Positions 7,693-25,409 of a stretch of DNA of 64,000 nucleotides are shown here, piece by piece (positions within the stretch are counted from its first letter, which is position 1; every line of letters starts with the position of its first letter). The DNA comes from an uncultured Chitinophaga sp. GTDB taxonomy: Bacteria > Bacteroidota > Bacteroidia > Cytophagales > Cyclobacteriaceae. A program made the translations under genes and the position numbers. The notes beneath the pieces were generated by a model that saw nothing but the letters and a program-made list of their open reading frames with translations, was not told where the DNA came from and searched no databases. Location of the stretch: NCBI GenBank assembly GCA_902168205.1, contig CABHOK010000002.1, forward strand, positions 310,001 through 374,000. The letters run 5' to 3'.

Positions 7693-9237
7693 ATGCGGTT
7701 CGTTATTACCTTCTGCTATATAGTATATACCGCTGTTGCCTGTGCGCAGGTAAAGCCTGCGAGTGTATTTGGTAATCACATGGTGTTGCAACGCGATATG
7801 CCCGTGCCGGTGTGGGGTACAGCAAAGGCAGAAGAAAAGATTACACTTGAATTGAATGGCCAGAAGTTAAAAACGAAAGCCGATGGTTCGGGTAGGTGGT
7901 CCGTTGTATTTACCCCGATGGCAACCGGAGGCCCCTATACATTAAAGGTGTCGGGTAAAAATACAATTACGTTTACAGATATATACATGGGTGAAGTATG
8001 GCTCTGCTCGGGACAGTCGAACATGGACATGACGGTAGCACGCGAAGATCGTTACTGGTGTGGCGTATACAATGAGCAGGAAGAAGTAACGAACGCAAAC
8101 TACCCGCTCATCAGAGTCTTTGATGTCGACTTCAATCCGGAAGATGAACCGCAGATGGAAGTGAATGGCAAGTGGGAAATTGTATCACCTCAATCGATCG
8201 GACATTTATCAGCTACTGCCTATTTTTTCGCGCGCGATATATTCAACAAGTATAAAATTCCGATCGGGTTGATCACTACAGCGTACGGTGCCAGCACGGC
8301 AGAGGCGTGGATTAGTCGCCCGGCATTGCAAAGTCATCCGCAGCTTTCATTTTTATTGGAGGACTACGCGAAGAAATGCGCGGCATACGATACGAGCTAT
8401 ACTGCTAAAAAGAAATATACCGAAGCGTATACTGCCTGGAAAATAGCGGCAGATAAAGCTGTAGAAGATGGAAAAGACAAACCACGCGAACCTAAAAATC
8501 CTGATCCCCATCGCGATCAGCATAACCCGGCTGTATTGTATAATGGTATGATTGCTCCGCTGGTTCCGTATGCTATACGCGGTGCGATCTGGTACCAGGG
8601 TGAATCGAACGGCCCAACGGCAAGGCTATACGGCACACTTATGGAGACACTCATCACTACGTGGCGCAAAGACTGGAAGCATGGCGATTTTCCTTTTCTC
8701 TATGTTCAGATTGCTAATCATCAGGAACAGGTAAAGGAGCCGGTTAAAGATGATCCAATGGTGTGGGTGCGTGATGCCCAGCTTCGGAATCTCTCTATCC
8801 CTAACACGGGTATGGCAGTTGCTATAGATAACGCCAATCCCGAGAATCCCAACGACATCCATCCGAAAAACAAACAAGCCATTGGTAAACGTCTTGCGCT
8901 TATCGCACGGGCAAAAGTATATGGCGAAAAAGAAATGGAATATTCCGGTCCGCTATATTCCAGAATGAAAGTAGAGGGTAACGCGATACGTATATATTTC
9001 GATCATGGTAAGTCACTAAAGATTCATGGTGATGAACTTCACGGGTTTGCCATTGCCGGCAGCGATAAACAATTTGTATGGGCAACAGCCCGTGTGGATG
9101 GTAACTCTGTGATAGTATATAGTCCGGAAGTAAACGAACCTGTTGCCGTACGGTATAACTGGAGCAAAAATCCTCCGGGTAATTTATATAACGAAGCGGA
9201 TTTACCGGCATCGCCATTTCGAACAGATTCAGAGTAA
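7693..9237 (+). CDS. Exported sialate O-acetylesterase-like carbohydrate esterase
   Basis: A 514-residue SGNH-type esterase of the SASA family (sialate O-acetylesterase), which in glycan loci removes acetyl groups from sugars so that glycosidases can act. The first 19 residues form a signal peptide ending near VACAQ, so it works in the periplasm. The nucleophile block VWLCSGQSNMDM is near residue 110, AIWYQGESNG marks the oxyanion region, and NDIHPKNKQAIGKRLAL carries the Asp/His of the catalytic triad. Acetylated rhamnogalacturonan would fit the neighbours, rhamnose mutarotase and GH106, better than sialic acid, but the substrate is inferred. It lies 6 bases after rhaM and 30 before the glycosidase. 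Confidence 0.9.
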   Translation: MRFVITFCYIVYTAVACAQVKPASVFGNHMVLQRDMPVPVWGTAKAEEKITLELNGQKLKTKADGSGRWSVVFTPMATGGPYTLKVSGKNTITFTDIYMGEVWLCSGQSNMDMTVAREDRYWCGVYNEQEEVTNANYPLIRVFDVDFNPEDEPQMEVNGKWEIVSPQSIGHLSATAYFFARDIFNKYKIPIGLITTAYGASTAEAWISRPALQSHPQLSFLLEDYAKKCAAYDTSYTAKKKYTEAYTAWKIAADKAVEDGKDKPREPKNPDPHRDQHNPAVLYNGMIAPLVPYAIRGAIWYQGESNGPTARLYGTLMETLITTWRKDWKHGDFPFLYVQIANHQEQVKEPVKDDPMVWVRDAQLRNLSIPNTGMAVAIDNANPENPNDIHPKNKQAIGKRLALIARAKVYGEKEMEYSGPLYSRMKVEGNAIRIYFDHGKSLKIHGDELHGFAIAGSDKQFVWATARVDGNSVIVYSPEVNEPVAVRYNWSKNPPGNLYNEADLPASPFRTDSE

Positions 9238-9267: not shown

Positions 9268-12207
9268 ATGGTTTGCGCACGTGTTATATTTCTTTTGTGG
9301 ATTGTGATAGGAGCTGCATCCTGCTCGAAAGAAGTAGCTGTAAAGCCCGGGTGGCCGGAAGCAACGCAAGAGAATAAACCGTGGAGTCGTTGGTGGTGGG
9401 AGGGAAACGCTCTCACGAAAGAAGGCATCACCGCGGAAATGGAAGCTTATAAAAAAGCAGGTATTGGCGGATTGGAGATTACACCTATATATGGTGTTCA
9501 TGGTTATGAAAAACATTTCATTGATTTTCTGTCACCGCAGTGGATGGAGTTATTTCTGCATACGTTGAAAGAGGCCGAGCGATTGGACATGGGCATTGAT
9601 ATGGCTACCGGCACAGGCTGGCCCTTTGGCGGACCTTGGGTTGGTGACGAGTATGCCTGTCGAAATATGTATCACCAGGTGTACGAAGTAAAAGGAGGAC
9701 AGAGTCTCCCGAAGAAAATTATATATATACAGCCCCCCTATCTGCGTGCTGTTGGAAACCAGGTATACGAGTTTAACGACAAGCCGACTCCTGAAAATAC
9801 GATTGGACAGAGATCGATAAAAGAACCTGCTCCGCGAATTGATCCGAAGAAGATCGATATAAAGGATCTTGTTCAACCAATCGCTGCGAATAAAAATCTG
9901 CAGGCTCTGGCATTAGACCAGGTTCAGTTCGAGCGATCCATTCCACTGCAAGTGTTAATGGCCTATAGCGATGAAGGTAAATCGATCGATCTCACCCGTC
10001 AGGTAGATGCTAATGGGAAACTCAACTGGACAGCCCCGGCCGGTAACTGGAAACTATATGCTGTATTTGCGGGCTGGCATGGTAAAATGGTAGAGCGTGC
10101 CGGACCCGGTGGTGAAGGAAATGTGATTGATCATTTTTCCGATGCAGCACTCAAACATTACCTGCATCGTTTTGATAGTGCTTTTAAAGGCCATGATATA
10201 AAATCACTGCGATCATTTTTTAATGATTCGTATGAGGTAGACGATGCGCGCGGCAGTGCAGACTATACCTATACATTGTTTGAAGAATTTACCAAACGAA
10301 GAGGCTACGACCTGCGCGAGCATTTACCTGAACTCTTCAATAAAGATCACGAAGATCACAAGCGTATACTCTGCGATTATCGTGAAACCGTTTCGGAGCT
10401 GGTGTTGAATAACTTTACACTGCCATGGAAAGCGTGGGCACATCAACATGGTGCGTTGATCCGTAACCAGGCGCACGGTTCGCCCTCCAATATACTTGAC
10501 CTATATGCTGCAGTAGATATTCCGGAGATCGAAGGTATAGAACCGTTGCGTATTAAGATGGCTTCTTCAGCCGGAAATGTTACCGGTAAAAAACTGGTCT
10601 CATCCGAATCAGCAACGTGGCTCAACGAACACTTTGAATCAAACCTCAGCGATATAAAAATAGCAGTTGATCGCTTTTTACTGAATGGTGTCAATCATAT
10701 TGTTTACCACGGCACGTGCTACTCGCCACCAAATGAGCCATGGCCGGGATGGCTTTTCTACGCTGCGGTACACATGAACCCGCGCAATAGCTTGTGGCAT
10801 GATACTCCTGCATTGAATAACTATATAACGCGCTGTCAGTCGCTTTTGCAGAGCACGCGTGCCGATCACGATGTACTCTTATACTTTCCTATATACGATC
10901 GGTTTTCAACTCCGGGTAAAGAGATGATCGAGCATTTTGATGGCGTAGGTAAACAATTTGAAAACACAGCCTTCCGTGACGGTGCCGAGTATATGCAAGA
11001 GAACGGTTATGCTTTTGATTTCATATCTGATAAGCAGATTGAGAACAGCACGGTGGAGAATGGGGTGATCAAAACAGAAGGTAAAGCAACGTATAAAACT
11101 ATTGTGATGCCGCATTCTGAATATATACCGCTGTGGACCTTCGCCAAGATCATTTCATTGGCAGAGGAAGGTGCGACCATCGTGGCGTATAAAGGTTTGC
11201 CAACGGCCATTGCCGGGTATGCCGATCGAACCGAAAAAGAAAACCAGTTTCACGGATTGATCGACAGGTTGAAAGTAGCAAAAAGTGAAAGTGGCGTGAG
11301 GGAAATGCAGGTTGGTAAAGGACGCATTGTTGTGGGCGATGATCTGGAGCAACTCCTTTCTTTTGTTAAAGTACAGAATGAACCGATGGGTGAAAATGGT
11401 TTGCAATACCAACGCAAAAAAGATGTGGATGGGAATATAGTATATTTCATTTCCAACAATTCTGAAAAGACTATCAATGCCTGGATACCGCTTCAAGCTA
11501 AAGCGGGAAGTATAACATTGCTCGATCCAATGAGTGGTGAGGTAGGGAAGGCGCGCGTTAAAAGCGAGGCACAAACAACGCAGGTATACCTGCAATTAAC
11601 CGCGCACCAGACTATATTTGTTAAGCTATATCCTAACTCAATAGACATGCCGGATTTCAGGTACTGGCAATCATCCAAAGATTCTGTCTCATTGAGTGGA
11701 ACCTGGAAAGTAACGTTCACCCAGGGTGGTCCTTCGCTTCCTGCCGTTGTACAAACTGATACGTTGAAATCTTGGACACAATTCAACGGAGATATATACC
11801 CGATTTTTTCCGGAACAGCAACGTATACCCTCGAATTTAATAAGCCTGCTCAACAGCCACAGCAATGGTTGCTCAAACTCGGTAAAGTAAAAGAAACGGC
11901 TGCGGTATATCTTAACGGTAACTATATAGCTACACTCATCGGGCCGGCATACCAGGTTGCCATTGATCCAGCCATGCTGCAAAATAAAAATATACTCGAA
12001 GTGCGTGTGTCCAATCTCATGGCAAACCGCATTGCAGATCTGGACAAGCGAAAAGTCTTCTGGAAGAAATTTTACAATGTAAATTTTCCATCGCGCAAGG
12101 CCGAGAACCGTGTTAACGGAATCTTTGATGCTTCACACTGGAAGCCACACGAATCGGGGCTGATGGGCCCGGTAACACTTCAGGCTTTAGTCGCACAGCT
12201 GCCTTAA
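9268..12207 (+). CDS. GH106-type alpha-L-rhamnosidase, lipoprotein
   Basis: A 979-residue exported glycoside hydrolase that should release terminal L-rhamnose from plant polysaccharides or glycosides. The signal ends in GAASCSKE, giving a lipid-anchored Cys near residue 19. The family N-terminal signature PWSRWWWEGNALTKEGI, followed by GIGGLEITPIYGVHGY, is typical of GH106 and of related Bacteroidota hydrolases. A long catalytic region follows (MATGTGWPFGGPW, SFFNDSYEVDDARG, SSESATWLNEHF, HIVYHGTCYSPPNEPWPGW), and the last 150 residues look like a galactose-binding beta-sandwich (AAVYLNGNYIATLIGP). The rhamnose mutarotase upstream supports the substrate. A related family without rhamnosidase activity cannot be excluded from sequence alone. 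Confidence 0.85.
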   Translation: MVCARVIFLLWIVIGAASCSKEVAVKPGWPEATQENKPWSRWWWEGNALTKEGITAEMEAYKKAGIGGLEITPIYGVHGYEKHFIDFLSPQWMELFLHTLKEAERLDMGIDMATGTGWPFGGPWVGDEYACRNMYHQVYEVKGGQSLPKKIIYIQPPYLRAVGNQVYEFNDKPTPENTIGQRSIKEPAPRIDPKKIDIKDLVQPIAANKNLQALALDQVQFERSIPLQVLMAYSDEGKSIDLTRQVDANGKLNWTAPAGNWKLYAVFAGWHGKMVERAGPGGEGNVIDHFSDAALKHYLHRFDSAFKGHDIKSLRSFFNDSYEVDDARGSADYTYTLFEEFTKRRGYDLREHLPELFNKDHEDHKRILCDYRETVSELVLNNFTLPWKAWAHQHGALIRNQAHGSPSNILDLYAAVDIPEIEGIEPLRIKMASSAGNVTGKKLVSSESATWLNEHFESNLSDIKIAVDRFLLNGVNHIVYHGTCYSPPNEPWPGWLFYAAVHMNPRNSLWHDTPALNNYITRCQSLLQSTRADHDVLLYFPIYDRFSTPGKEMIEHFDGVGKQFENTAFRDGAEYMQENGYAFDFISDKQIENSTVENGVIKTEGKATYKTIVMPHSEYIPLWTFAKIISLAEEGATIVAYKGLPTAIAGYADRTEKENQFHGLIDRLKVAKSESGVREMQVGKGRIVVGDDLEQLLSFVKVQNEPMGENGLQYQRKKDVDGNIVYFISNNSEKTINAWIPLQAKAGSITLLDPMSGEVGKARVKSEAQTTQVYLQLTAHQTIFVKLYPNSIDMPDFRYWQSSKDSVSLSGTWKVTFTQGGPSLPAVVQTDTLKSWTQFNGDIYPIFSGTATYTLEFNKPAQQPQQWLLKLGKVKETAAVYLNGNYIATLIGPAYQVAIDPAMLQNKNILEVRVSNLMANRIADLDKRKVFWKKFYNVNFPSRKAENRVNGIFDASHWKPHESGLMGPVTLQALVAQLP

Positions 12208-12242
12208 AACCTTATTTTTCCGGTAATTCAAACGTTTTAGAT

Positions 12243-12262
12243 ACGGTATAGTGCAGGATAGT
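12243..12262 (+). promoter_or_regulatory. Shared upstream box before the first susC
   Basis: ACGGTATAGTGCAGGATAGT matches, with one difference, the sequence at 25258-25277 on the other strand before the second susC. In both places a TTCAAACG lies further upstream, although 11 extra bases separate it here. The box ends 34 bases before the palindrome core. It could be a promoter element or the site of a second regulator. Confidence 0.6.
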
Positions 12263-12296
12263 TCCCGGCATAACAGGAGGTAAATTCATATTACGC

Positions 12297-12308
12297 GCAA
12301 TCGATTGC
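12297..12308. promoter_or_regulatory. LacI-type operator before the first susC
   Basis: GCAATCGATTGC is a perfect 12-bp palindrome with the central CG and flanking A/T pattern of LacI-family operators. It ends 19 bases before the susC start codon, a position suited to repression. The same core lies within a longer 18-bp palindrome before the second susC. No lacI-type gene is in the window. Confidence 0.75.
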
Positions 12309-12327
12309 ATCACCAAATCAACCTCCT

Positions 12328-15300
12328 ATGAAAAAATGTTTATCTATTCCGATCAGATCATTTCTCGATCTGTTTGTCGCATGCTTCCTTATTTTCTGCG
12401 TGAGTATCTCTACTGCTCAGGCGTTCCAGACACGCGTGATCAAAGGGCAGATACTTTCATCAGATGACAACACTCCGCTGCCGGGTGTGAACGTACTTGT
12501 AAAAGGTACAGCCAATGGTACTGTTACCGATGGCGATGGTAATTATTCCATCGAAGTTCCCAATGCCGATGCTATACTTGTCTTCAGCTCCATCGGCTAT
12601 GCCACTACTGAAATAACAGTAGGTGGACAATCATCCATAAACCTCTCACTCAACCCCGATGTTACTTCGTTAACAGAAGTAGTTGTTGTAGGATATGGTA
12701 GTGTCAAGAAGAGCGATGTAACCGGGGCGCTCTCGTCTGTATCGGCAGAACAGTTACGCGCTATACCCGTGCAAAGTATATCGCAGGCTATGCAGGGACG
12801 CGCGGCTGGTGTAGATATAGCACAGAACAGCTTTCGTCCGGGCGACAACCCGGTTATACGCATACGCGGTAACCGCTCGCTCATCGGTGGTAACGATCCG
12901 CTTATCGTGCTCGATGGTATACCGTTGCCCGAAGGATCAAGCATCAACGACTTTAGTCCGAGTGATGTAGAGTCAATCGAGATATTAAAGGATGCATCAT
13001 CAACCGCTATATATGGTTCGCGCGGAGCCAACGGTGTTGTGCTGGTAACTTCGAAGAAAGGTAAAGCAGGTAAAGCTAAAATTACTTACGATGGTTATTA
13101 TGGTGTATCTACTCCGTTGTCTGAGATCGATATGAAAACCGGTGGCCAGCATGCCGAGATGCGCAGAGAAGCTTTGCGTAACAATGCGGGCTTTGTATAT
13201 ACTGTACCATGGGCTGACGTTAACCAGGACTTCGCTGCGTTCAGTCCATCGGATGTAGAGATGTGGAACTCCGTTGCTGACGGTTACGAATGGCAGGATC
13301 GTCAGGCAAGAATACCGGTTATGCGTCCGGTGACAGCAGAGGAACGCGAAGACTTTGAAAGCTACTACGCACAGTATGCATATCGATATCCGGAAGGTAC
13401 AGCTTCGCGAACAGCAGAGATACAAGCGAAGCTTGATAACCTGCGTGCGTTACTCGATGATCCTAACCTGCAGATACCGGTATATAATCCGGAGAAGGTT
13501 CGGTCAACGAATTGGGGTGACCTCGCATTGCGTACTGGTCGGAAACAAAGTCACCAGTTCAGTGTAGCCGGTGGAACTGAAAATATAGGGTTATTCTTTG
13601 GAGCCGGATACTACAATGAAGAAGGGATACAGAAAGGACAGGACTTCGAACGCTTCAATGCAAAAGTAGGACTCGACTACCAGGTAAATGATATACTCAA
13701 AGTAGGCGGTACCATTACCGGAACACTCTCGACACAGAACTACGGATCACCCCTATATTTCAGAGCGATTGGACAGTTGCCGCTGGCTATTCCATACGAT
13801 GCGACCGGCAAGATCATTTTTCAACCCGGTGGCGATCCGCTGATATTTAGTCCGCTTAACGAGATCGATGACTTTATTGATGATCGGAGAACATCACGTG
13901 TATTCGGAAGTTACTATGCCGATCTCAAACTTTTCAAAGGACTTCGTTTCCATGTAAATCTAGGTACCGATTTGAAAGAATATAGAAGAGGTCGTTACCA
14001 GGGATCGTTTACGTCCGACAGGAGAGGTGGTACATCATGGGCTGAATATAACCAGGAGAACCGTTTCACCTGGGTAATGGAAAATCTGCTCTTCTATGAT
14101 AAGCAGATCGGTGACAAACATACTATAGGTGTAACAGCTATGTATAGTATGCAGAAAGATCGCTTCGAGTCATCGCTCACAAACGTTGCTAACTTACCGT
14201 ACGAGTCGCAGCTATACTATAATTTAGGATCGACCAACGCTTCCGGTCCGGATGCTTTTGCCAGCGATTTTTCCGAGAAAGTTATTCTGTCCTATATGGC
14301 GCGTGTAAATTACTCGTTGCTCGATCGCTACCTGTTGACATTGACGGGTCGTTATGATGGATTGTCTCCTTTGGCAAAAGGAAACAAATGGGGATTCTTC
14401 CCTTCGGCATCTATCGCCTGGAAGATACACCAGGAACCTTTCATGAGCAGTGTAACATTCGTGGATGAATTGAAACTGCGCATCGGTTACGGTGAAGTGG
14501 GTAACGCAGGTGTACCTCCATATCTTGCCAAAGGTAGATTAAATAAAGTTCCGTATGTGTGGGGTGAGACACCGGCATGGGGATATGCTCCGCTATATAT
14601 ACAGAATCCGAACCTGCGCTGGGAAGGAACGCGCTCGCTCAATGCCGGTATAGATTTCGGACTGATTGCAGGGAGAGTTACCGGTACATTCGAAGTATAT
14701 CAGCAAACTACAGATGATCTGATGATGTGGCGACAACTGCCAACGGCCTCTGGTTTCTCTTCTATTCTTGAAAACATAGGGAAAGTAAGAAACCGCGGTA
14801 TTGAAGTAGCCTTGAACACCGTAAATATAGATGCCGGTAATGGTTTCAAATGGGAAACAAGTATCATCTTCTCCAAGAATAAAGAAGAGCTGCTCGAGCT
14901 ATATGGCGGAACCAACGATGATCTTGGAAACCGTTGGTTCATCGGACACCCTATAACAACCTATTATGATTGGCAACCGATCGGTGTATGGCAAACGAGC
15001 GAAGCCGATGCCGCTGCGGTGTATAAAAGAATTCCTGGACAAGGAAAGATCAAAGATCAGAGTACCGACAATGATGGTGATGGTATAAAAGATGGTCCCG
15101 ATGGCGTGATCAATGCCAACGACCAGGTTATACGCGGGAACAACGTACCCGATTGGACCGGTAGCATCATGAACAAATTGTCCTATAAGAATTTTGAATT
15201 TTCTTTCATGCTCTATACCCGCCAGGGATCAACCATTGCGAGCGGTTATTACAGACCAGCGCTTGCCGGACGTTATCCTGAGCCTGCCCTGGTTGATTAT

Positions 15301-15663
15301 TGGACACCTACCAATCCAACCAATATGTACCCGCGCCCTACAACAGACCAGGAGCGTATTGATTACCCCCAGGCGTATCTATACCAGGATGGTTCATTTG
15401 TAAAGATGCGTAACATCACACTGGGCTATACATTTCCGCGTAACATGATATCGAAATTCAGAATGGAGAGTCTGCGGTTGTATGTAACAGCTTATAACCC
15501 GTTCCTGTGGAGTGACTTTAAAGGAGGCGATCCTGAATTCTATGCAAACTCTACACGTGTTGATCGTGGTCTCAATGTACCGATCACGAACGTAGACGAT
15601 CAACTCATCGGTAACAACCTGAGTGAACGAAGTGTAGTATTCGGATTGACCGTTGGATTCTAA
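12328..15663 (+). CDS. SusC-type TonB-dependent outer-membrane transporter, first pair
   Basis: A 1111-residue outer-membrane importer that works with the SusD protein encoded next to take up oligosaccharides using TonB energy. A signal peptide covers roughly residues 1-32 (through STAQA). A carboxypeptidase-regulatory-like domain follows at about 38-110 (IKGQILSSDDNTPLPGVNVLVKG), then the TonB plug at about 125-240 with EVVVVGYGSVKKSDVTGAL, AMQGRAAGVD and DASSTAIYGSRGANGVVLVTSKKG, and then the barrel ending in VVFGLTVGF. Location after a rhamnosidase and esterase, and a shared operator with the second pair, suggest a rhamnose-containing glycan as cargo. The susD gene starts 29 bases after its stop. 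Confidence 0.95.
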   Translation: MKKCLSIPIRSFLDLFVACFLIFCVSISTAQAFQTRVIKGQILSSDDNTPLPGVNVLVKGTANGTVTDGDGNYSIEVPNADAILVFSSIGYATTEITVGGQSSINLSLNPDVTSLTEVVVVGYGSVKKSDVTGALSSVSAEQLRAIPVQSISQAMQGRAAGVDIAQNSFRPGDNPVIRIRGNRSLIGGNDPLIVLDGIPLPEGSSINDFSPSDVESIEILKDASSTAIYGSRGANGVVLVTSKKGKAGKAKITYDGYYGVSTPLSEIDMKTGGQHAEMRREALRNNAGFVYTVPWADVNQDFAAFSPSDVEMWNSVADGYEWQDRQARIPVMRPVTAEEREDFESYYAQYAYRYPEGTASRTAEIQAKLDNLRALLDDPNLQIPVYNPEKVRSTNWGDLALRTGRKQSHQFSVAGGTENIGLFFGAGYYNEEGIQKGQDFERFNAKVGLDYQVNDILKVGGTITGTLSTQNYGSPLYFRAIGQLPLAIPYDATGKIIFQPGGDPLIFSPLNEIDDFIDDRRTSRVFGSYYADLKLFKGLRFHVNLGTDLKEYRRGRYQGSFTSDRRGGTSWAEYNQENRFTWVMENLLFYDKQIGDKHTIGVTAMYSMQKDRFESSLTNVANLPYESQLYYNLGSTNASGPDAFASDFSEKVILSYMARVNYSLLDRYLLTLTGRYDGLSPLAKGNKWGFFPSASIAWKIHQEPFMSSVTFVDELKLRIGYGEVGNAGVPPYLAKGRLNKVPYVWGETPAWGYAPLYIQNPNLRWEGTRSLNAGIDFGLIAGRVTGTFEVYQQTTDDLMMWRQLPTASGFSSILENIGKVRNRGIEVALNTVNIDAGNGFKWETSIIFSKNKEELLELYGGTNDDLGNRWFIGHPITTYYDWQPIGVWQTSEADAAAVYKRIPGQGKIKDQSTDNDGDGIKDGPDGVINANDQVIRGNNVPDWTGSIMNKLSYKNFEFSFMLYTRQGSTIASGYYRPALAGRYPEPALVDYWTPTNPTNMYPRPTTDQERIDYPQAYLYQDGSFVKMRNITLGYTFPRNMISKFRMESLRLYVTAYNPFLWSDFKGGDPEFYANSTRVDRGLNVPITNVDDQLIGNNLSERSVVFGLTVGF

Positions 15664-15692
15664 GAACAGTGTCACGATTAAAAAATACAGGT

Positions 15693-17534
15693 ATGAAAAA
15701 AATAGCAATACTTTTCTTTACAACTGTGGCACTCTTCTCATGCCATGACATGCTGGATGAAGAAGCCGTATCACAACCTACATACGATCTTTATAATTCG
15801 GAGGCCGGTGTTGAGCAACTGGTAAATGCGGCCTATAACACATTGCGTTTTCAGTTCAACGGTGAACAGAGCTTTACCATGTGGAACTATGGCGTGGATG
15901 AATATATACAGGCAGCCGATGGTCAGAATAAATTTGTAGACGCCTATACCAACCAGCTGAACTCTACTTTTACCATGTTCCACGATGTATGGACAGCCTA
16001 CTACCAGGGTATAAATACATGTAACATGGCAATGAAACTTATTCCCGATGTAGTGGGTGAAGGTGGTGGACTTTCTACCGAACAGGGTAAAGCGAGACGA
16101 ATTGCAGAGATGCGTTTTCTGCGTGGATATTATTACTTTGTGCTGGTACAGCAATTTGGAAGTATACCAGTATCGTTAACAGCAACCGAAGGTATAAATC
16201 TTGAATTTCCAAAGTCGCCCGTAGCCGATGTATATGACGTTATCATTGCTGACCTGCGTGCTGCTGAAGCCGTGCTGCCGCAAACACAAGGCGATCGGGG
16301 CCGCATCACGCAAGGTGCAGCGCGTCACTTTCTGGCAAAGGTATATCTCACCCGTGGCAGTGCTGTAACCGATGAGCGCGGACAAAAAGAAACCGATATC
16401 GACAGCGCTGCTTACTATGCTGATCTTGTAATCAACCAGGGTACATACGCACTCGTAAATAACTTTGCAGACCTGTGGAACGTAGCGAATGAAGCTAACA
16501 GTGAAGTAATTCTTTCGGCACAATTCAATAACAACCCGTTGTTGCTTGCTAACTCCGGTAATCGTGTTCATCTATACTATCAAATGGTATACGATGGCAA
16601 GCCAGGCATGGAGCGCGATATTACCTATGGACGTCCTTTCCGAAGATTGAAGCCTACACCGTATACAATTGAAGTATTCGATCGCAAGAATGATTCACGC
16701 TTCTATAAAAGTTTCAGAACGGTATACCTTAGCAACGATCGTACAGCACCGATCACCATTCCGAAATGGGAGCAGGCTGATGCCGATGCCGGGTATGTAT
16801 CACAAGCCCTGGTTGGTAAAAATAAATTTAATGTAGGCGATACCGCTGTCATTGTTACCGTTGATAAAAACGTAAGCGATGCTGCTATCAAGTCTAAGTA
16901 TTATTTGTGGATACCGCAAAACAAATGGAACAATGCAGACTTCCTTACACTGATAAAATGGATGGACCCGACTCGCCTGGATATAGGCACTGAGTTTGCC
17001 GGCAGAGATGGTTTGATCGCGCGACTCGGAGAAACATACCTGATCGCAGCCGAAGCATACGGCCGCATGGGAGATTATACGACAGCCGCTAACTATATAA
17101 ATGTACTCCGCGATCGTGCCGCCTATAAAGCAGGTGAAGTAAAACCGTTCCACTTCTACAAGACAGAGGGCGGTGCCTATGGTGATATCAACAGTACAGC
17201 GGCAGCACTACACATCGATGCAACCTATTGGGATAACAACGTTGCACTCGAGAAATACCCGGCATCAGCGAGCAGTACAGAAAGCAGATTTATACATTTT
17301 ATACTTAACGAAAGAACACGCGAGTTACTCGGAGAGCTGCACCGTTGGAATGATCTTGTTCGTACTGAAACATTTTATGAACGTGTAAAACAATTCCATT
17401 CAATCGCAGCACCCAATGTGCAGCCGTTCCATAAACTGCGTCCTATACCACAGGCGCATCTGGAACGTGTATTTATAAATGGAAGACCACTCACAGGCGA
17501 AGAAAGACAACAACAACAAAACCCCGGATATTAA
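15693..17534 (+). CDS. SusD/RagB-type glycan-binding lipoprotein, first pair
   Basis: A 613-residue surface lipoprotein that caps the SusC barrel and binds the incoming glycan. The ATG at 15693 gives a clean lipoprotein signal, MKKIAILFFTTVALFSCHDML, with the lipidated Cys at residue 17; an upstream in-frame GTG would spoil it. The family is evident from RFLRGYYYFVLVQQFGSIPV, the helical repeats, [23 protein letters not shown] and the C-terminal block HFILNERTRELLGELHRWNDLVRT. It is clearly paralogous to the second SusD in the window; the tails HKLRPIPQAHL and [11 protein letters not shown] are nearly the same. It is followed by a terminator. Confidence 0.95.
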   Translation: MKKIAILFFTTVALFSCHDMLDEEAVSQPTYDLYNSEAGVEQLVNAAYNTLRFQFNGEQSFTMWNYGVDEYIQAADGQNKFVDAYTNQLNSTFTMFHDVWTAYYQGINTCNMAMKLIPDVVGEGGGLSTEQGKARRIAEMRFLRGYYYFVLVQQFGSIPVSLTATEGINLEFPKSPVADVYDVIIADLRAAEAVLPQTQGDRGRITQGAARHFLAKVYLTRGSAVTDERGQKETDIDSAAYYADLVINQGTYALVNNFADLWNVANEANSEVILSAQFNNNPLLLANSGNRVHLYYQMVYDGKPGMERDITYGRPFRRLKPTPYTIEVFDRKNDSRFYKSFRTVYLSNDRTAPITIPKWEQADADAGYVSQALVGKNKFNVGDTAVIVTVDKNVSDAAIKSKYYLWIPQNKWNNADFLTLIKWMDPTRLDIGTEFAGRDGLIARLGETYLIAAEAYGRMGDYTTAANYINVLRDRAAYKAGEVKPFHFYKTEGGAYGDINSTAAALHIDATYWDNNVALEKYPASASSTESRFIHFILNERTRELLGELHRWNDLVRTETFYERVKQFHSIAAPNVQPFHKLRPIPQAHLERVFINGRPLTGEERQQQQNPGY

Positions 17535-17562
17535 CCCCTCTCATTGGTTTGGTGCTTGAAGA

Positions 17563-17597
17563 GGTTACCCGCAAGGGTAGCCTTTTCTTTTTTATTT
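17563..17597 (+). terminator. Rho-independent terminator after the first susCD pair
   Basis: GGTTACCC and GGGTAGCC pair over 8 bp (one G-T) around a GCAA tetraloop at 17563-17582, followed by a long T-rich run. It ends the transcript 29 bases after the susD stop. Confidence 0.85.
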
Positions 17598-17667
17598 TAC
17601 TCAACAACTTTAAAGCGCAGTGAGCGGTGCTATATCCTTTTTCCTATATTGTTGCCAATCTTTATAT

Positions 17668-17997
17668 ATGGAAAATGATATACTTATAATTGGCTCTAAC
17701 GGTTACGTGTCAGCTATACAAACCAGTGATGGATGCGAGCTTTGGCGCACCAAACTACGCGAAGGCTTTTTCGGAGGTTCAGGAGGCTGCGATGTGAGTG
17801 TGCTGATCGAAGGTGATAAAATTTTCGCAGGCTGTGCCGGACGGATCTATGCACTCCGAACATCCGATGGAAAAATACTTTGGGACAATGACCTGAAAGG
17901 AATGGGCTATAACCAGGTGGCGCTGGCGAAAGAGGGTACAAGCATACAGTTTATTACGCGAATAGAGGGAACAGGGAGTAGCAGTAGTAACTCGTAA
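17668..17997 (+). CDS. Short PQQ-repeat beta-propeller fragment
   Basis: A 109-residue protein with two PQQ-like repeats: DILIIGSNGYVSAIQTSDGCELWRT and KIFAGCAGRIYALRTSDGKILWD. These are propeller blades normally found six to eight at a time in quinoprotein dehydrogenases or BamB-like proteins, so the protein is either a very short propeller part that assembles with others or the remnant of a larger gene. There is no signal peptide from the ATG at 17668. The C-terminus is a low-complexity run (EGTGSSSSNS). It sits alone between a terminator and an 800-base AT-rich gap. Whether it makes a useful protein is uncertain. Confidence 0.6.
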   Translation: MENDILIIGSNGYVSAIQTSDGCELWRTKLREGFFGGSGGCDVSVLIEGDKIFAGCAGRIYALRTSDGKILWDNDLKGMGYNQVALAKEGTSIQFITRIEGTGSSSSNS

Positions 17998-18794
17998 CTA
18001 CCCGGATAGTCCTTCCTAAAATTATAGTGAAAGTCTTACTGATTATTGATTTGTAATTCTAAATGGTTAGAGTGGCGCTTATGATTTTATAAAACCTGGA
18101 GACTCGATCATTAAGGATGTTAATAGTTTGGATCGAAATAACTATTTAATGAATACTATTCGAACCTATTACCAAAATGAATAAACTAAGATATAGTTTT
18201 GGGACTTTGATCGCTGTAAGTAACCAAATGAAATGCTACTCAGAATATACCGGAAAGTGCGTAGTTCATTACGTACTAGGTTTAATGCTTTTAACAAGCT
18301 GCCATTTAATAGTCAGTATATAAATAAATAGAGAGGGAGACAAAGTAGCTGCCGAGAATAACTTTAAAATTATTTGAAGCGTGCAAAAAAAATAGAATTG
18401 TGAATCGATATTGAGATTCTATAGTGACGAATTTTTTGACGTTACTAGCCAGGATCTGAAATGAGCAATCCATCTGCTGTTATTTACTTGTTTGTTGAAA
18501 GCTTTGCAAGGCCAAGGTTATTATATACCTATACAGGACGCTTAATCGTCTTGCAAAACTTAATCACCAGCGGGGTTTCAGGAAAAAATGTATGACTATA
18601 TCCGCGGGCAAGATTTCCCTATAACTATAAACGAGTATATAGTATTTATACTCAATTGAGGTTGCAACGTACAACATAACGGTTTGTTACTTGCACAAAA
18701 ACATTCGTATTCGTATATTAATTACCAAGTCTAACTATTGGAGTTACGTCAAATATTGACCTGAAATGGTTGTCTAAATTAAAATATCGGAAAC
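17998..18794. other. 797-base AT-rich gap with no recognisable gene
   Basis: The stretch is visibly richer in A and T than its surroundings. All frames are broken by stops; the longest start-to-stop run I noticed is about 48 codons from 18177 and shows no family resemblance. No tRNA fold, terminator or clear operator was seen. It could hold the promoter of the sensor gene at 18795, a small RNA or the remains of a lost gene. Confidence 0.6.
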
Positions 18795-19922
18795 ATGAAC
18801 GATGAATTACGCATGAGGGAGTTGATGGAATATCACATCTTAGATACACCACCGGAAAAAGAGCTTGATGAAATTGCACAAATCGCTTCGATAGTATGCA
18901 ATACCCCTATGTCCATGGTCACTTTTATCGATTCACATCGCCAATGGTACAAAGCAAAAAAAGGTGTCAGCATGAATGAAGTACATCGCGCAGACTCGTT
19001 TTGCCAGCATGCTTTAAACCGTCCGGAAGAATTACTCATTGTAGAAGATCCGAGCACGGATGACCGATTCAGGAATAACAGATACGTTTCGGGTGATCCT
19101 TATATCCGGTTCTACGCAGGTGCACCGTTGACCTCGCCTTCCGGCAATGTACTTGGTACCCTTTGTGTAATGGACAGCAAGCATCACGATATCACTGAAG
19201 ATCAAAAGGAAGCGCTAAAGCTTCTCGCTGATAAGGCGATGCAGTATCTCAACATGCGCAAAACATTGATTGAGCAAGGACATTTCATAGAACATAGTGC
19301 CGAAAAACTCAAAAAACTAAGCGACTTAGCGCCAGGCGTTATGTTTCAAATTGAGGCAAAAACTGACGAAAAAATTAAGCTGGTTTTCGTAAGCCAGGGA
19401 GTTGAAAAAATGCATCCTGATTTTACAACCGAAACGGTCACTGACAATCCTGAGACTTTCGTTAGCCTTATCCACGAAGGAGATCGTATACGAATAATAA
19501 AGAGCATTGAGCATTCCCTCGCTCATAAATCATCGTGGAGCGAACAGTTCAGGCTGATCAATCCAGAGGACGAATATACATGGTACTCAGTGAATGCAAC
19601 CATCGAGCGTAAAGTTAACGGAGCAACTATATATGGATCGATACACAACATTTCAGCTTTAAAAGAATATGAAGCGTTACTTAACCAAGTTCTTCATGAC
19701 GTGTCTCACGTTATGCGCCGGCCAATAACTTCAATGCTAGGGTTGGTTTCAGTAATGGAAACGGAGGTGTTTGATCGCATACAGGTGCAACAATACATGC
19801 AACATGTGAAATCAGTATTTACCGAACTCGATGCCTTCACACGAAACCTGAATATGGAATATACGGAAAAGATGAATAAATATGAGGACATGCATCGTCA
19901 CTATTCAGCTGACTCAAGGTAA
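18795..19922 (+). CDS. GAF-PAS sensor with a histidine phosphoacceptor-like helix but no kinase domain
   Basis: A 375-residue cytoplasmic sensor. Residues about 15-155 form a GAF domain (SIVCNTPMSMVTFIDSHRQWYKAKKG, FYAGAPLTSPSGNVLGTLCVMD). Residues about 170-295 look like a PAS domain (APGVMFQIEA, WSEQFRLINPEDEYTWYSVNATIERKVNGATIYGSIHNIS). Then comes HDVSHVMRRPITSMLGLVSVMET, which resembles the H-box helix of histidine kinases (SHxLRxPL) with His at residue 305. The protein stops about 65 residues later, with no N, G1 or G2 box. It may therefore be a phosphotransfer or dimerisation partner for another kinase, or a degenerate kinase. It has no obvious operon partner; a bidirectional terminator follows. 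Confidence 0.8.
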   Translation: MNDELRMRELMEYHILDTPPEKELDEIAQIASIVCNTPMSMVTFIDSHRQWYKAKKGVSMNEVHRADSFCQHALNRPEELLIVEDPSTDDRFRNNRYVSGDPYIRFYAGAPLTSPSGNVLGTLCVMDSKHHDITEDQKEALKLLADKAMQYLNMRKTLIEQGHFIEHSAEKLKKLSDLAPGVMFQIEAKTDEKIKLVFVSQGVEKMHPDFTTETVTDNPETFVSLIHEGDRIRIIKSIEHSLAHKSSWSEQFRLINPEDEYTWYSVNATIERKVNGATIYGSIHNISALKEYEALLNQVLHDVSHVMRRPITSMLGLVSVMETEVFDRIQVQQYMQHVKSVFTELDAFTRNLNMEYTEKMNKYEDMHRHYSADSR

Positions 19923-19970
19923 ATCTCCAAACATACAGCATTACCGACTGATCTCATCAATAGTAATAAA

Positions 19971-20019
19971 GTAAAAGAAGCTGCTCAATGTTGAGACAGC
20001 TTCTTTTACAGTTTTACTT
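19971..20019. terminator. Bidirectional terminator between convergent genes
   Basis: GTAAAAGAAGCTG at 19971-19983 and CAGCTTCTTTTAC at 19997-20009 form a perfect 13-bp stem, with CTCAA/TTGAG pairing further inside. T-rich sequence follows on the plus strand, and A-rich sequence precedes it so that the minus strand also has a T tract. It serves the sensor gene and the second susD. Confidence 0.85.
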
Positions 20020-20032
20020 CATTAAATATATA

Positions 20033-21898
20033 CTACCACCCCGGATTCTGCTCCGCTTGCTTCTCCTCTGCAGTTAATGGACGGCCATCTTTTTGTATAG
20101 TGTCGAGATGTCCTTGTGGTATAGGACGCAGCAGGTGCTTCTCCGATACGTTAGGTGCTGCTTCGGGGTTGAACGCTTTAGCACGTTCTACTAATGTTTT
20201 GGTGCGAGCGAGATCTACCCAGCGGTGAAATTCTCCCATCAGTTCGCGGGCGCGCTCATTGAGTATAAAGTGAATGAACAGTTGTTCTTTGGAAGTTGCT
20301 GATGCCGGGTATAATTCGCTGGCAGCTTCCGGTGTGCCCGATGTGAAATGATTTTCGGTTGCTACCATGGCTGTTTCGGTGCTGGTAGTTTCGCCCCAGG
20401 CAACATTTTCTGCAAGATAGTATACATTGCTTCGTGCTTCTCCTCCTTTGTAGGCGGCTCGCTTGCGCAGGGCGTTAATATACTCCAACGCTTTGGTATA
20501 ATCTCCTTTACGACCGTATGCTTCGGCTGCAATCAGGTATGTTTCGCCAAGGCGCGCTAATATACCATCGCGTGTGCCTTTCTGATCGGATACATTCTGG
20601 CGAAGCGGATCTATATACTTGGACAATGATGGATATACACTCAAATTCCAATTCGTAACTTGTTTACCGGTTGCGTCATTATAGTATCTGATCTTGAACG
20701 TTTTTGCAGCTTTGTCAATATACTGCTGCGTAAAGCGTGTATCAGTCTTTTCGTTTATGATATATATAGCAGATGTATCACCAACGTTGAATTTGGTTTT
20801 ACCGATCAGGTCTGCGCTCGGTGCATCAGCAGCAATCCATTTCGGCAGGGTAGCTGCGTTGTTCGCGATATAGGCAGTTTTGAAGCTCTTGTAGAAACGA
20901 GAGTCATTGGTGCGATCATATATATCGAGAGCATAATCTGTAGGACGCAAGCGCTGAAACTCGCGACCGTTCGCTACATCGCGAATCATGCCGGGTAAAT
21001 TCTGATATATAGAAAGAAAATACAAATGTGTCTGGTTTCCGTAACGGCCCAGTTGACTTTGCGTATTATCGAACTGCGATGCGAGAATGATTTCTGCGTT
21101 CTGTTCATTCGCACCGTTCACAGCGGTATACTTGAAGAGATCGTTATAATCTGTTGCCAGCTTGCGCGTTGAATTAGAAATCACCTGGTCAGCATAATAT
21201 ATAGCGCTGTCCAGATCGGTTGATTTACTGAAATCTGCATACATTTCACTGGCCCGCGTAAGATATGCTTTTGCGAGAAAATGGTGAGCTGCATATTTGG
21301 CGATGCGTCCGTTTTGTGCAGCGGCTATAGGGAGCAGATCAGCAGAGCGTCTCAGGTCTGCGATCAACTGCCTGAAAACATCTTCTGCCGATGAACGCGA
21401 GAATTCGAGCTCCAGCCCCTCCGTTGGTTGAAGCTTGATCGGTACACCGCCAAACTGTGTAACAAGATTAAAATAGCTAAAGCCTCGAATGAAATATACT
21501 TCGCCTAAGCGTGTATTCAGTTTTTCTCCTGTCAATACTGAAGGCATGTTTACAATGCCACGATTACAGAGGTTGATCTGTCCATACATCGCATTCCAGT
21601 GTTGCGATAGTATAGATGTGTTCGTGGGATCCAGTGTGGCTACATACGTGTTCCAGATCACGAAATCCGTTCCGCCACCATTGGTAAATTCATCCGTACC
21701 ATAATTCGTCATGGCGTATGCCCACTCGTAGTTGTGGTGAAACCGCAGGCCTTCGTAAGCACCGTTTACCAGTGCATCGAGTCCATCTTCTGTTTTGTAG
21801 TAATCCTGTGTAAGGGTTGCAACCATTTCTTCCTGCAGAAAGTCAGAGCAGGAGAGGAAGCACACCGAAAGTGTCAGTGTGAATAATATCTTTTTCAT
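20033..21898 (-). CDS. SusD/RagB-type glycan-binding lipoprotein, second pair
   Basis: A 621-residue surface lipoprotein partner of the SusC encoded just upstream. The signal [21 protein letters not shown] places the lipidated Cys at residue 17. Family features include [49 protein letters not shown] and [24 protein letters not shown]. It matches the first SusD throughout, including [17 protein letters not shown] at the C-terminus against GRPLTGEERQQQQNPGY, so the two arose by duplication. It begins 54 bases after the susC stop. A substrate related to that of the first pair is likely but not proven. Confidence 0.95.
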
Positions 21899-21952
21899 AA
21901 TTCGTAGTAATTATAGTCTGTATATCCGTTCAACTTTATTCGCTTCATTTTT

Positions 21953-24900
21953 TCAGAAGGATACATTCAATCCGAACACAAGGCTTCGTGATGATATACC
22001 GGAGTTTATATCCGGATCGATGAACGAAGTTTTTGAATGCAGGAACGGATTCATAAGTTGCCCGTAGAGTCTCAATTCACTGATGTGTATTTTCTCCAGC
22101 ATGCTATGCGGGAATACATAGGCGAGCGATATATAGCGAACCTTTACAAACGAACCATTCTGGTAGTTCATGGCGCTATAATGTACCGGTACACCACCGT
22201 TGCTATAGTCAGCACGAGGATATGCATTGGTAGGATTTTCAGGAGTCCAGTAATCAACTTTCCGGGCGGAGTAACGTCCCTGCATATCCACTGCACCACC
22301 TTCGATCGTGGCTCCCCAGCGTGCATATACAAATGCACTCAGTTCCCAGTTCTTATAACTGAAGGTATTGGTTATACCACCGTTCCACTGCGGATTGTTG
22401 GTGCCGAGTATCTGGCGGTCGTTGTTCTGGTCGATCTTGTAATCACCATTTACATCTTCCACGCGTATATCACCGGCTTTATAGGTCGCACCATTCTCGT
22501 TGAATTTAGCCATCTCTTCCGCGTCTGCAGTCTGCCAGATACCAATCTTCTTATAGTCATAGTATACCTGCAACGGCTCACCGATAAACCATGATTTTGC
22601 AACATCATCAAACTTGCCATTGTATAGCTCTACAATTTTTCCACGGTTTCGTGTAAACGTTACGTTGCTGGCCCATTTGAAATCGCCCTGATCTATATTG
22701 ATAGTTGATAAGGACACTTCAATACCTCTGTTCTGCGTTTTGCCAACGTTGAAATTTATACCACCATAACCCGTAACGTACGGAGTGGAGCGCGACATCA
22801 ACAAGTCGTATGTATCCGCTATATAATAATCGATGGAGCCGGTAACGCGATCATTGAACAATCCGAAGTCGATACCGAAGTTCCATTGCTGTGTCTTTTC
22901 CCAACCCAGCTCGGGGTTCGGTATAGATCCCTGTTCATCGGCAGCAGCTTTTGGGTTGGAAGGTACATATCCGTTCGCGGCTGTACTTCCGAATACATAC
23001 GGCACTTGTAGCAAACCTCCGGCAGTGTTATAGGGATCAACGGCAGCATTACCAACGGTACCCATACCGATGCGTGGTTTCAGTTCACTGATCCAGTCAA
23101 CACCCTGCAGGAACGATTCTTCATTCATCTTCCATGCGAAAGCAAACGAAGGGAAGAAGTCCCATTTGTTACCATTAGCCAATACAGAGGCACCGTCCCA
23201 GCGGCCTGAGACAGTCAGTAAATATTTATCGCGGAAGGTATAATTAACACGTCCCATATACGACATGAGTGTGCGCTTCGAGTAACTGGAGCCCCATCCA
23301 TCCAATGCACCTTTGGTAGTAGATCTCAGATTATACCACAGCTGACTGTTATACGGAAGACTGGTAGCGGTCATGTCAGATCCTTCCTGTCTCCAGAGGG
23401 AAGAACTTTGCAACAGTGTTAAGCCGATCTTGTGATCACCGAATGTTTTATCATAGAATAACAGGTTCTCCCATGTCCACGATACTTGCTGATCTTGTCT
23501 ATAGCGTGCATAGTTTGTAGAGGATGGCGCACCGCCACCGCGCAGTATAGATTCTTTATACTGGAACTCACCATTCTTATAGTTACGCAAGTCAGGACCA
23601 AAGTTTGTACGGAAGCGTAATCCTTCCGCTAGTTTAGCTTCTGCAAAGAAACTTCCTAAAATGCGCAGGGTGCTGCGCTCGTTGATAACGTATTCATCTT
23701 CGCGTATAGGGTTCACAATATTTATATCGCCACCCGGGTAGTATATATATTTACCAGCCGTGTCGTACGGTACAGCGAACGGCAACATGCCTTTCGCAGC
23801 TTCATAAATAGTGCGTGCTGCACGCGAGCCGGTGCCTGCATAGCCATAGTTTTGAATGGAATACGTTGTTGCCATAGAACCGCCAAACGTTAACCAGTCA
23901 ACTGCACGGATCTCTAAATTTACTCTGCCGGTATAGCGTTTATAGTCTTGTCCTTTGCTGGTACCGGCTTGATTGAGATATCCGCCCGAGAAGAAAGCCT
24001 TCACGCGATCGGTACCCATGCTCACATTTACATTGTGATCTTGTGTAACACCGGTTTGATTAACATAATCTGTCCAATCCGTTGTAGGTACTTTGCTCGC
24101 ATCATATACAGGCACCTCGGTTACACCCCACTTGGTTTGTTCTTCGGCTGTGGCAGGACGCATGGCCGGAACCAGATTGTCTTTATCCACCCAGGTATAT
24201 CCGGCTGCTATAGATTCCCACGCAAAGGCATCTGCACCGAGTATGCGCTTGTCGTCAACGGGATTGGGATAGGGTGTTGAATATTTTGTGGTACCTGTTA
24301 CAGAACGATAGGCGTTTCTTCTATACTCTGCATATTCACCCGCATTGAACATGTCTTGCAGGTCATTGATGCGTTCAAAATATACCGAGCCGCTATAGCT
24401 CACCTGTGCTTTACCGGCTTTACCTTTTTTGGTTGTTACGAGTATAACACCGTTCGCGGCACGCGAGCCATATATAGCCGAAGCCGAAGCATCTTTCAAT
24501 ACTTCGATGGATTCAATGTCGGCCGGGTTGATGGCATCTATACCGCCTGATTGCATCGGTATACCATCCACGACATAGAGCGGATCATTGGTAGCGAGCA
24601 GTGAACGTGTACCGCGTATGCGAATCGTTCCGAGCTCACCGGGACGAGCATTCGAAGTAACATCTATACCGGCAGCGCGACCTTGCAAGGCCTGCAATGT
24701 ATTTTGTACCGGCATGGCGATGATCTGATCGGAAGTCATTTTTACAACGGACCCGGTAACATCACTTTTCTTTACGGTTCCGTAGCCCACTACCACAACT
24801 TCAGAGAGCGATGTTACATCGGCTTCCAGTGTAACGTCAATAACCGATTGAGATCCGATCGGTACTTCGCGTGTAGCGTACCCGATGGCACTCACCAGAA

Positions 24901-25165
24901 GTATAGCATCGCCTGACGAAACTTCCAGTGAGTAATTACCTTCGCTGTCTGTAACGGTACCGGTGCTGGTCCCTTTTACAATTACGTTGGCACCGGGAAA
25001 GCCGAGGCCGTCATCAGCCGAAGTGACTTTACCACGGATGATCCGTTGCTGGACGCCATGGTCGTTGGTCGCGCTGTGAGCATACAACGGTATGCCTACC
25101 AGCAGGAGCATTCCTGCTATACTCCATAGCAGAAATCTTTTGCTTCCAGATAAAATTTGATGCAT
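21953..25165 (-). CDS. SusC-type TonB-dependent outer-membrane transporter, second pair
   Basis: A 1070-residue outer-membrane importer. A signal peptide covers roughly residues 1-32 (ending YAHSA). A carboxypeptidase-regulatory-like domain follows (IRGKVTSADDGLGFPGANVIVKG), then the plug with EVVVVGYGTVKKSDVTGSV, ALQGRAAGIDV and DASASAIYGSRAANGVILVTTKKGKAGKA, and the barrel ending in SLVFGLNVSF. It is paralogous to the first SusC, with almost the same plug sequence, and is controlled by the same type of palindrome. It runs opposite to the first pair, so the two systems flank the PQQ fragment and sensor gene. No glycosidase is attached to this second pair. Confidence 0.95.
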   Translation of the reverse strand: MHQILSGSKRFLLWSIAGMLLLVGIPLYAHSATNDHGVQQRIIRGKVTSADDGLGFPGANVIVKGTSTGTVTDSEGNYSLEVSSGDAILLVSAIGYATREVPIGSQSVIDVTLEADVTSLSEVVVVGYGTVKKSDVTGSVVKMTSDQIIAMPVQNTLQALQGRAAGIDVTSNARPGELGTIRIRGTRSLLATNDPLYVVDGIPMQSGGIDAINPADIESIEVLKDASASAIYGSRAANGVILVTTKKGKAGKAQVSYSGSVYFERINDLQDMFNAGEYAEYRRNAYRSVTGTTKYSTPYPNPVDDKRILGADAFAWESIAAGYTWVDKDNLVPAMRPATAEEQTKWGVTEVPVYDASKVPTTDWTDYVNQTGVTQDHNVNVSMGTDRVKAFFSGGYLNQAGTSKGQDYKRYTGRVNLEIRAVDWLTFGGSMATTYSIQNYGYAGTGSRAARTIYEAAKGMLPFAVPYDTAGKYIYYPGGDINIVNPIREDEYVINERSTLRILGSFFAEAKLAEGLRFRTNFGPDLRNYKNGEFQYKESILRGGGAPSSTNYARYRQDQQVSWTWENLLFYDKTFGDHKIGLTLLQSSSLWRQEGSDMTATSLPYNSQLWYNLRSTTKGALDGWGSSYSKRTLMSYMGRVNYTFRDKYLLTVSGRWDGASVLANGNKWDFFPSFAFAWKMNEESFLQGVDWISELKPRIGMGTVGNAAVDPYNTAGGLLQVPYVFGSTAANGYVPSNPKAAADEQGSIPNPELGWEKTQQWNFGIDFGLFNDRVTGSIDYYIADTYDLLMSRSTPYVTGYGGINFNVGKTQNRGIEVSLSTINIDQGDFKWASNVTFTRNRGKIVELYNGKFDDVAKSWFIGEPLQVYYDYKKIGIWQTADAEEMAKFNENGATYKAGDIRVEDVNGDYKIDQNNDRQILGTNNPQWNGGITNTFSYKNWELSAFVYARWGATIEGGAVDMQGRYSARKVDYWTPENPTNAYPRADYSNGGVPVHYSAMNYQNGSFVKVRYISLAYVFPHSMLEKIHISELRLYGQLMNPFLHSKTSFIDPDINSGISSRSLVFGLNVSF

Positions 25166-25206
25166 AGTTAAATTGTTTTCGATTGGCTAGTGATTTAGGT
25201 TGAGTA

Positions 25207-25224
25207 TGCGCAATCGATTGCGCA
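25207..25224. promoter_or_regulatory. LacI-type operator before the second susC
   Basis: TGCGCAATCGATTGCGCA is a perfect 18-bp palindrome containing the same GCAATCGATTGC core as the site before the first susC. It lies 41 bases upstream of the start codon at 25165. Its symmetry and central CG fit LacI-family binding. Confidence 0.8.
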
Positions 25225-25257
25225 ATGAACATAAAATTATTCGTGACGATACGGCTC

Positions 25258-25277
25258 ACTGTCCTGCACTATACCGT
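25258..25277 (-). promoter_or_regulatory. Shared upstream box before the second susC
   Basis: Read on the minus strand, ACGGTATAGTGCAGGACAGT differs by one base from the box at 12243-12262. It is preceded by TTTCAA and lies 36 bases upstream of the 12-bp operator core, against 34 bases at the first pair. Conservation outside the operator points to a promoter or a second factor. Confidence 0.6.
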
Positions 25278-25409
25278 TTGAAATGGCTGTGATAGAACTT
25301 TTTATGAGATAGAAGCATACCTGTACTGTGCTGTGCCGGAGGCTTTGCAGCGTGAATTGCGCGCTTCGTTTTCCGGGCACGCTTTTTTGGACGATGTAGT
25401 AAAAAGCGT

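Follow-up and report, generated by a model that had tools for sequence, protein, structure and literature searches.

Paired promoter sites ahead of two susCD pairs in a Cyclobacteriaceae genome may join rhamnose and galacturonate control

The window analysed here is a stretch of 64,000 nucleotides from an uncultured Chitinophaga sp., placed in the Cyclobacteriaceae by GTDB (contig CABHOK010000002.1, positions 310,001 to 374,000), in which two susCD pairs lie on opposite strands and each susC gene is preceded by a conserved box and a palindrome. These composite promoters are probably bound by two regulators encoded elsewhere in the genome, a rhamnose-linked hybrid of GntR and LacI type on the box and a LacI-family repressor linked to galacturonate genes on the palindrome, which together would form an AND gate for rhamnogalacturonan I (RG-I). 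The backbone of RG-I alternates rhamnose and galacturonate, and it is for this reason that a promoter with both sites could serve as a gate of AND type responding to this polymer; the susCD pairs would probably be fully on only when both backbone sugars are present. The binding, inducers, activator sign and AND logic proposed here are drawn from the sites, their geometry, their recurrence in relatives, the gene neighbourhoods and the protein domains described below.

The palindrome core GCAATCGATTGC lies at 12297-12308 and at 25210-25221, the second copy being part of the 18-bp palindrome TGCGCAATCGATTGCGCA at 25207-25224, and the 20-bp box ACGGTATAGTGCAGGAYAGT lies at 12243-12262 on the plus strand and at 25258-25277 on the minus strand. 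This agrees with a preliminary description of the window, which had placed a core and a box ahead of both susC genes with spacers of 34 bases at the first site and 36 at the second. With up to 3 mismatches allowed, the window contains no match to the box other than these two, where 0.02 would be expected; the core, with 4 matches at up to 2 mismatches within the 64 kb against 3.87 expected, is unremarkable by number. A further sequence, TTCAAACG, ends 8 bases ahead of box 1 (12227-12234) and overlaps the start of box 2 by 3 bases (25275-25282, minus strand), a register shift of 11 that corresponds to the 11 extra bases previously noted at the first site. The susCD pairs had been called duplicates from protein similarity and are indeed homologous, with identities of 44% between SusC1 and SusC2 and 46% between SusD1 and SusD2. 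The same description held that the upstream conservation goes beyond the palindrome, and box and core are near-identical while only 4 of the first 18 bases downstream of the box are alike at the two sites. It also placed the regulator outside the window, and within the window neither of the candidates introduced below gives a tblastn match better than E 0.15.

The whole genome (7.3 Mb in 20 contigs) was searched with the exact sites, using reversed patterns as controls. The exact core occurs in 7 places (reversed control 1): two belong to the window, four to a cluster of galacturonate/pectin genes on contig C11, and one precedes an RG-I operon on contig C3. An 18-bp part of the box, GGTATAGTRCAGGAYAGT, has 3 exact occurrences, all of them 35-37 bp ahead of a CAATCGATTG core, and the probability that 3 boxes would be co-located with 7 palindromes by chance is about 7e-12. 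Weak matches to the box carry little meaning because at up to 3 mismatches there are 34 in the genome and 18 in the reversed control; the near-exact ones alone stand out. The search for palindrome plus box, which had been suggested earlier, yielded a third composite site, C3:1471093-1471157, with the same box and palindrome between divergent genes. Nor do the sites lie ahead of many unrelated genes: the 7 palindromes and 3 boxes precede RG-I, pectin or galacturonate genes, some of these names being given by eye.

On one side of the third site is a GntR-domain gene (C3:1469966-1471030), followed on the same strand by rhaD, encoding a rhamnulose-1-phosphate aldolase/dehydrogenase fusion that scores above the cut-off of its NCBIfam models, and then by rhaI-like and rhaB-like genes, whose products resemble rhamnose isomerase and an FGGY kinase but do not reach the equivalog cut-offs. 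On the other side is a run of genes for GH43-like, Gfo/Idh-like and GH88-family proteins, a GDSL esterase and a family 11 rhamnogalacturonan lyase, the Gfo/Idh-like call being made via an 80% relative (L142). The C3 locus also encodes a 710-amino-acid protein (1547-3679 of L016) for which Pfam gave nothing at E<=0.001; its relatives lie near GntR or rha genes in two other genomes, G127 and G160.

The N-terminus of the GntR-domain protein matches the GntR helix-turn-helix domain PF00392 with 52.1 bits (cut-off 27), and by sequence its body matches Peripla_BP_3 with 25.1 bits, below the cut-off of 26.5. An AlphaFold2 model made with 20 homologues (mean predicted local distance difference test score, pLDDT, 88.7; predicted template modelling score, pTM, 0.71) has a GntR-type N-terminus, and with Foldseek the body of the model matches LacI-family proteins and the effector domain of AraR, 3tb6. 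When compared with solved structures by sequence, the DNA-binding domain alone gives matches, including AraR (4egy, E 1.3e-7) and YvoA. The protein as modelled combines a GntR DNA-binding domain with a LacI/AraR-like effector domain, a build like that of AraR.

Across the family, a search for the box followed after 20-50 bases by the palindrome gave 13 sites, spread over 7 of the 390 genomes, and none for the reversed pattern. Eight of these composite sites lie ahead of susC, six of the eight with a GH106 rhamnosidase gene in the same stretch, and the remaining five lie beside the gene for the GntR hybrid. Homologues of the hybrid itself are found in 95 of 196 family genomes (E<=1e-40). Among 30 GntR loci chosen by rank, 9 hold the box at up to 2 mismatches, with 11 sites against 0.35 hits for the permuted consensus; three of the nine (L093, L094 and L097) are also composite sites. 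A set of 20 distant GntR loci comprised 9 chosen for a listed box, which hold it by construction (9/9), 9 with no listed box and 2 repeats. Two of the 9 with no listed box hold it at up to 2 mismatches (L134 and L135), or 4 of 11 when they are pooled with the repeats L141 and L142, which are the same as L095 and L098. At up to 3 mismatches, the box lies between the GntR gene and rhaD, reading into rhaD, in 12 of the 18 distant loci, and in G177, a member of the same genus, a weaker box with 2 mismatches lies ahead of rhaT (PF06379), rhaD and rhaI. Among the matches listed, judged by eye, the box is within 200 bp of the GntR gene in at least 18 family genomes; many of the box matches in relatives, in 30 loci examined among those listed, are inside unrelated genes.

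In a class-wide sample, GntR homologues were found in 41 of 395 genomes and 8 of 29 loci, 2 of the 29 belonging to the same family, have the box at up to 3 mismatches (control 0.7, maximum 2). The box is before rhaD in 3 of the eight, before a RhaT-like gene in 2, before a RhaI-like gene in 1, before nothing identified in 1 and inside a frame in 1 (L212). The box next to a GntR homologue hence recurs in other families of the class, ahead of rhaD or rhaT. From this distribution the box looks older than the susCD promoters and would be primarily a site of rhamnose genes.

Some further observations were made at these loci. A conserved protein of about 465 amino acids with no Pfam match is encoded directly downstream of the GntR hybrid (L119, 2611-4026; L123, 2631-4019), in L119 additionally behind a box, and could be a transporter or enzyme of rhamnose use that has so far escaped recognition. 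In G012 a box with 2 mismatches precedes a gene that by eye is lutA-like, a lactate-use gene, with a -7 element at 4/6 positions at offset 18 (L061, about 1501-1554). In G127 an exact box with a -7-like element is found behind a GH106 gene with no susC reading on (L219, 2061-2078), perhaps the remnant of a promoter left after loss of the susCD1 pair.

Bacteroidota promoters have the consensus TAnnTTTG at -7 and TTTG near -33 (PMC7366714). Among 32 distinct box sites, with repeats removed and the 13 composite sites included, 20 show a -7 match at 5 or 6 of the 6 consensus positions starting at precisely 18 bp from the end of the box, and any other offset is found in at most 2. Within offsets 14-22, 12 of the 13 composite sites have their best -7 element at 18 (L083 and L090, where 18 ties with 22, are counted as 18) and one has it at 17; in all 13, CAATCGATTG starts 17-19 bases downstream of where the -7 element begins. 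In the window the -7-like elements TAAATTCA (12281-12288, plus strand) and TAATTTTA (25232-25239, minus strand) each lie 18 bp behind their box and agree with the consensus at 4/6 and 5/6 positions. The -7 element TAnnTTTG expected for sigma-ABfr is thus present, at 5 or 6 positions, in the 20 sites just given, with only 4/6 at window site 1. The -33 element is missing, its place being taken by the box: TTTG or TTG at a spacing of 16-21 is found in 1 of the 7 composite sites examined for it (L082, spacing 16). With the transcription start predicted from the consensus, the palindrome would span about +1 to +18 and the box would cover the -33 region.

The right half of the box together with the -7 pattern is found in 8 places in the genome (control 0), three of which are the promoters of susC2, rhaD and the RG-I operon. 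Window site 1 escapes this pattern because its -7 element is TAAATTCA. The other five places were rejected as regulon members, 4 being inside open frames and 1 (L143) reading into no gene. Also rejected were the 31 inexact boxes of the genome, with 2-3 mismatches: of the 27 with loci, 24 are in open frames and 3 are intergenic, and none of the 27 exceeds 3/6 for a -7 element at offset 18. Open frames were called mechanically at 100 or more amino acids, a weak criterion by which the true C3 site (L020) is likewise flagged as being inside a frame. Across the class the strict box with a -7 element is found in 5 of 395 genomes (control 1), and among the 4 strict matches outside the present genome a GntR gene beside rhaD is present at L183 alone, the rest being chance-like.

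The four cores on C11 are within 35 kb, in a cluster containing a LacI-family gene (C11:424723-425751) and genes for KduI, tagaturonate reductase, glucuronate isomerase, an aldolase of 2-keto-3-deoxy-6-phosphogluconate type, a PfkB kinase and susCD. The cluster also encodes a short-chain dehydrogenase/reductase that passes the cut-off for gluconate 5-dehydrogenase but not the one for KduD, a galactarate-dehydratase-like protein below its cut-off and putative pectinases assigned by eye, one of which matches Pectate_lyase_4 below its cut-off. LacI operators are expected to be palindromes of 18-20 bp with a central CG near the promoter, as TGCGCAATCGATTGCGCA is, and to be located at genes of the cognate regulon and near the LacI gene, as the cores are. 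Homologues of this LacI gene were examined at 30 loci picked by rank from 196 family genomes, with a stretch of about 4 kb per locus; 13 of the loci carry CAATCGATTG, with 15 sites against 0.13 expected from composition. The LacI locus of the present genome is among the 17 without the palindrome, its nearest copy being 1.85 kb off and beyond the stretch of about 4 kb. Taken together this suggests that the galacturonate LacI repressor has the palindrome as its operator.

The preliminary description had read the palindrome as a LacI-type site and the box as the mark of a second factor or as a promoter feature. The first is now tied to a LacI gene among galacturonate and pectin genes, and the second both to a GntR-type regulator with rhamnose genes and to a fixed distance from the -7 element, which supports the two suggestions made for the box. 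In the mechanism proposed, the box would be the operator of the rhamnose-linked hybrid encoded on C3, with a -7 element for the housekeeping sigma factor 18 bp behind it and the box replacing the -33 element. Because the box takes the place of -33 at a fixed spacing, the hybrid bound to it is most likely an activator that recruits RNA polymerase. The palindrome near +1 would be the operator of the C11 LacI repressor, presumably freed by an intermediate of the galacturonate pathway. Of the two sites, rhamnose genes have only the box and the galacturonate cluster has only the palindrome; both are found at the genes for RG-I, namely the two susCD pairs and the RG-lyase operon. In a wider form of the proposal, for which we see an even balance of chances, many Bacteroidia have the hybrid as their ancestral activator for L-rhamnose, acting on the direct repeat AGGAYAGT-RC-AGGAYAGT in place of -33 and 18 bp from -7, and in this genus and a few relatives that promoter has been joined to the galacturonate LacI operator as a two-input gate for RG-I.

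Several observations weigh against this proposal. The rhaD promoter of the genome retains the right half of the box alone, CAGGACAG, with TAGCTTTG at the same spacing and no palindrome. At the thresholds used there is no box at 21 of the 30 rank-chosen GntR loci and 21 of the 29 class-wide loci. Two genomes of the same genus, G156 and G127, retain the box ahead of the relative of susC2 and lack the exact palindrome, though a LacI homologue is present; the best palindrome match is 6/12 bases in G156 and 9/12 in G127, where it lies at offset 37, as expected. The genome encodes 8 LacI-like proteins at E<=1e-60 and the protein binding the palindrome could be one of these paralogues. Finally, a palindromic operator would be expected for GntR/LacI hybrids and the box is better described as a 10-bp direct repeat (similarity 0.643, background 0.257) than as the best inverted repeat (0.42), figures that are biased by the collection of sites with a consensus; a direct-repeat operator is atypical of a GntR domain.

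An alternative with the same two regulators is that the GntR hybrid represses by blocking -33 until rhamnose frees it, the gate then being a double de-repression. Sugar regulators of GntR type such as AraR and YvoA are repressors according to their PDB names and the box overlaps the -33 region, yet the rigid spacing from box to -7 and the box standing where TTTG would be at -33 are as for an activator contacting polymerase, and we consider repression possible but on the unlikely side. Instead of the hybrid, an AraC-type RhaR or a hybrid two-component system (HTCS) may read the box, with the GntR neighbour incidental. Bacteroides rhamnose regulators are of AraC type, and direct repeats such as the 10-bp repeat of the box are common among AraC-type sites. 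The linked regulator has a GntR domain and not the AraC DNA-binding domain of Bacteroides RhaR. Given that the adjacency of box and GntR gene is kept in the family (within 200 bp in the family genomes counted above) and in several other families, this explanation appears improbable. That the shared upstream sequence is a relic of susCD duplication or chance was rejected as a full account, and is very improbable, since the homologous pairs have diverged in protein and spacer while box and core hardly have, the third site precedes a non-homologous gene, the sites are conserved in relatives, and exact-site counts and co-location argue against chance.

Parts of the proposed activator and repressor scheme have counterparts in known systems. 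In Erwinia chrysanthemi (Dickeya) the rhamnose-responsive RhaS activates the rhamnogalacturonan uptake and breakdown genes rhiTN and rhiE (PMC3870299). The likeness is the rhamnose-responsive control of rhamnogalacturonan genes; RhaS is of AraC type, whereas here the regulator is a GntR/LacI hybrid with another site, susCD targets and a Bacteroidota promoter. The hexuronate repressor KdgR reportedly acts on the rhi genes as well. The BT0365-60 operon of B. thetaiotaomicron, predicted to be under dual control by AraR and HTCS_Ara-1, is likewise a case of susCD under two regulators, one of them for a monosaccharide (PMC3878776). In contrast, both candidates here come from monosaccharide or uronate clusters of different sugars and no HTCS is implicated, the gene between the pairs having been scanned. 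Rhamnose regulation in Bacteroides is by an AraC-type RhaR, and the LacI hexuronate regulators KdgR, UxaR, UxuR and UxuR2 are described in Bacteroidota, the latter resembling the present case in having a LacI-family protein beside galacturonate genes. AraR of Bacillus subtilis shares with the hybrid a GntR DNA-binding domain and a LacI-like effector domain, with a sequence match over the DNA-binding domain only; it represses arabinose genes and its operator differs.

In searches of the open-access PMC literature, neither a GntR-type rhamnose regulator of Bacteroidota nor a promoter uniting its site with a hexuronate LacI site was found. Dual control of susCD and rhamnose control of rhamnogalacturonan genes are known in kind, and the regulator and its box appear undescribed. 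The usual view is of one dedicated oligosaccharide sensor for each susCD locus. If the proposal is true, a complex polymer would be recognised via two monosaccharide-level regulators joined at one promoter, and a rhamnose regulator that is widespread in Bacteroidia and apparently undescribed would be given its operator and promoter geometry, making regulon prediction and sugar-controlled promoters feasible in this class.

The genes served by the two promoters are susC1 (12328-15663; Pfam Plug, CarbopepD_reg_2 and beta-barrel) and susD1 (15669-17534; SusD_RagB and SusD-like_3) on the plus strand, and susC2 (21953-25165; Plug and CarbopepD_reg_2) and susD2 (20033-21898; SusD_RagB and SusD-like_3) on the minus strand, both SusC proteins being TonB-dependent receptors. 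The sole signalling gene between the pairs, 18795-19922, matches GAF, PAS and, below its cut-off, HisKA, and the Pfam scan gave no DNA-binding domain and no ATPase domain for its product. Immediately upstream of promoter 1, on the plus strand, is a gene for a GH106 alpha-L-rhamnosidase (9268-12207; PF17132, E 7.2e-74), preceded by genes for a carbohydrate esterase with a SASA domain (7693-9237; PF03629) and an L-rhamnose mutarotase, rhaM (7372-7686; PF05336, E 1.6e-32). Ahead of rhaM, GATACTACAGGATA at 7313-7330 resembles the core of the box by eye with 5 of 18 positions off. A degenerate box at 4276-4293, with 3 mismatches, precedes the lactate operon; by eye it has no -7 element at 18 bp and it is not claimed as a site. 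The lactate-use genes at 4353-7181 (CCG, LUD and LutB_C domains) and rhaM directly precede the esterase and GH106 genes. Because rhamnose breakdown by the route of the RhaD/dehydrogenase fusion leads to lactate, the whole stretch, lactate-use genes included, may serve rhamnose use.

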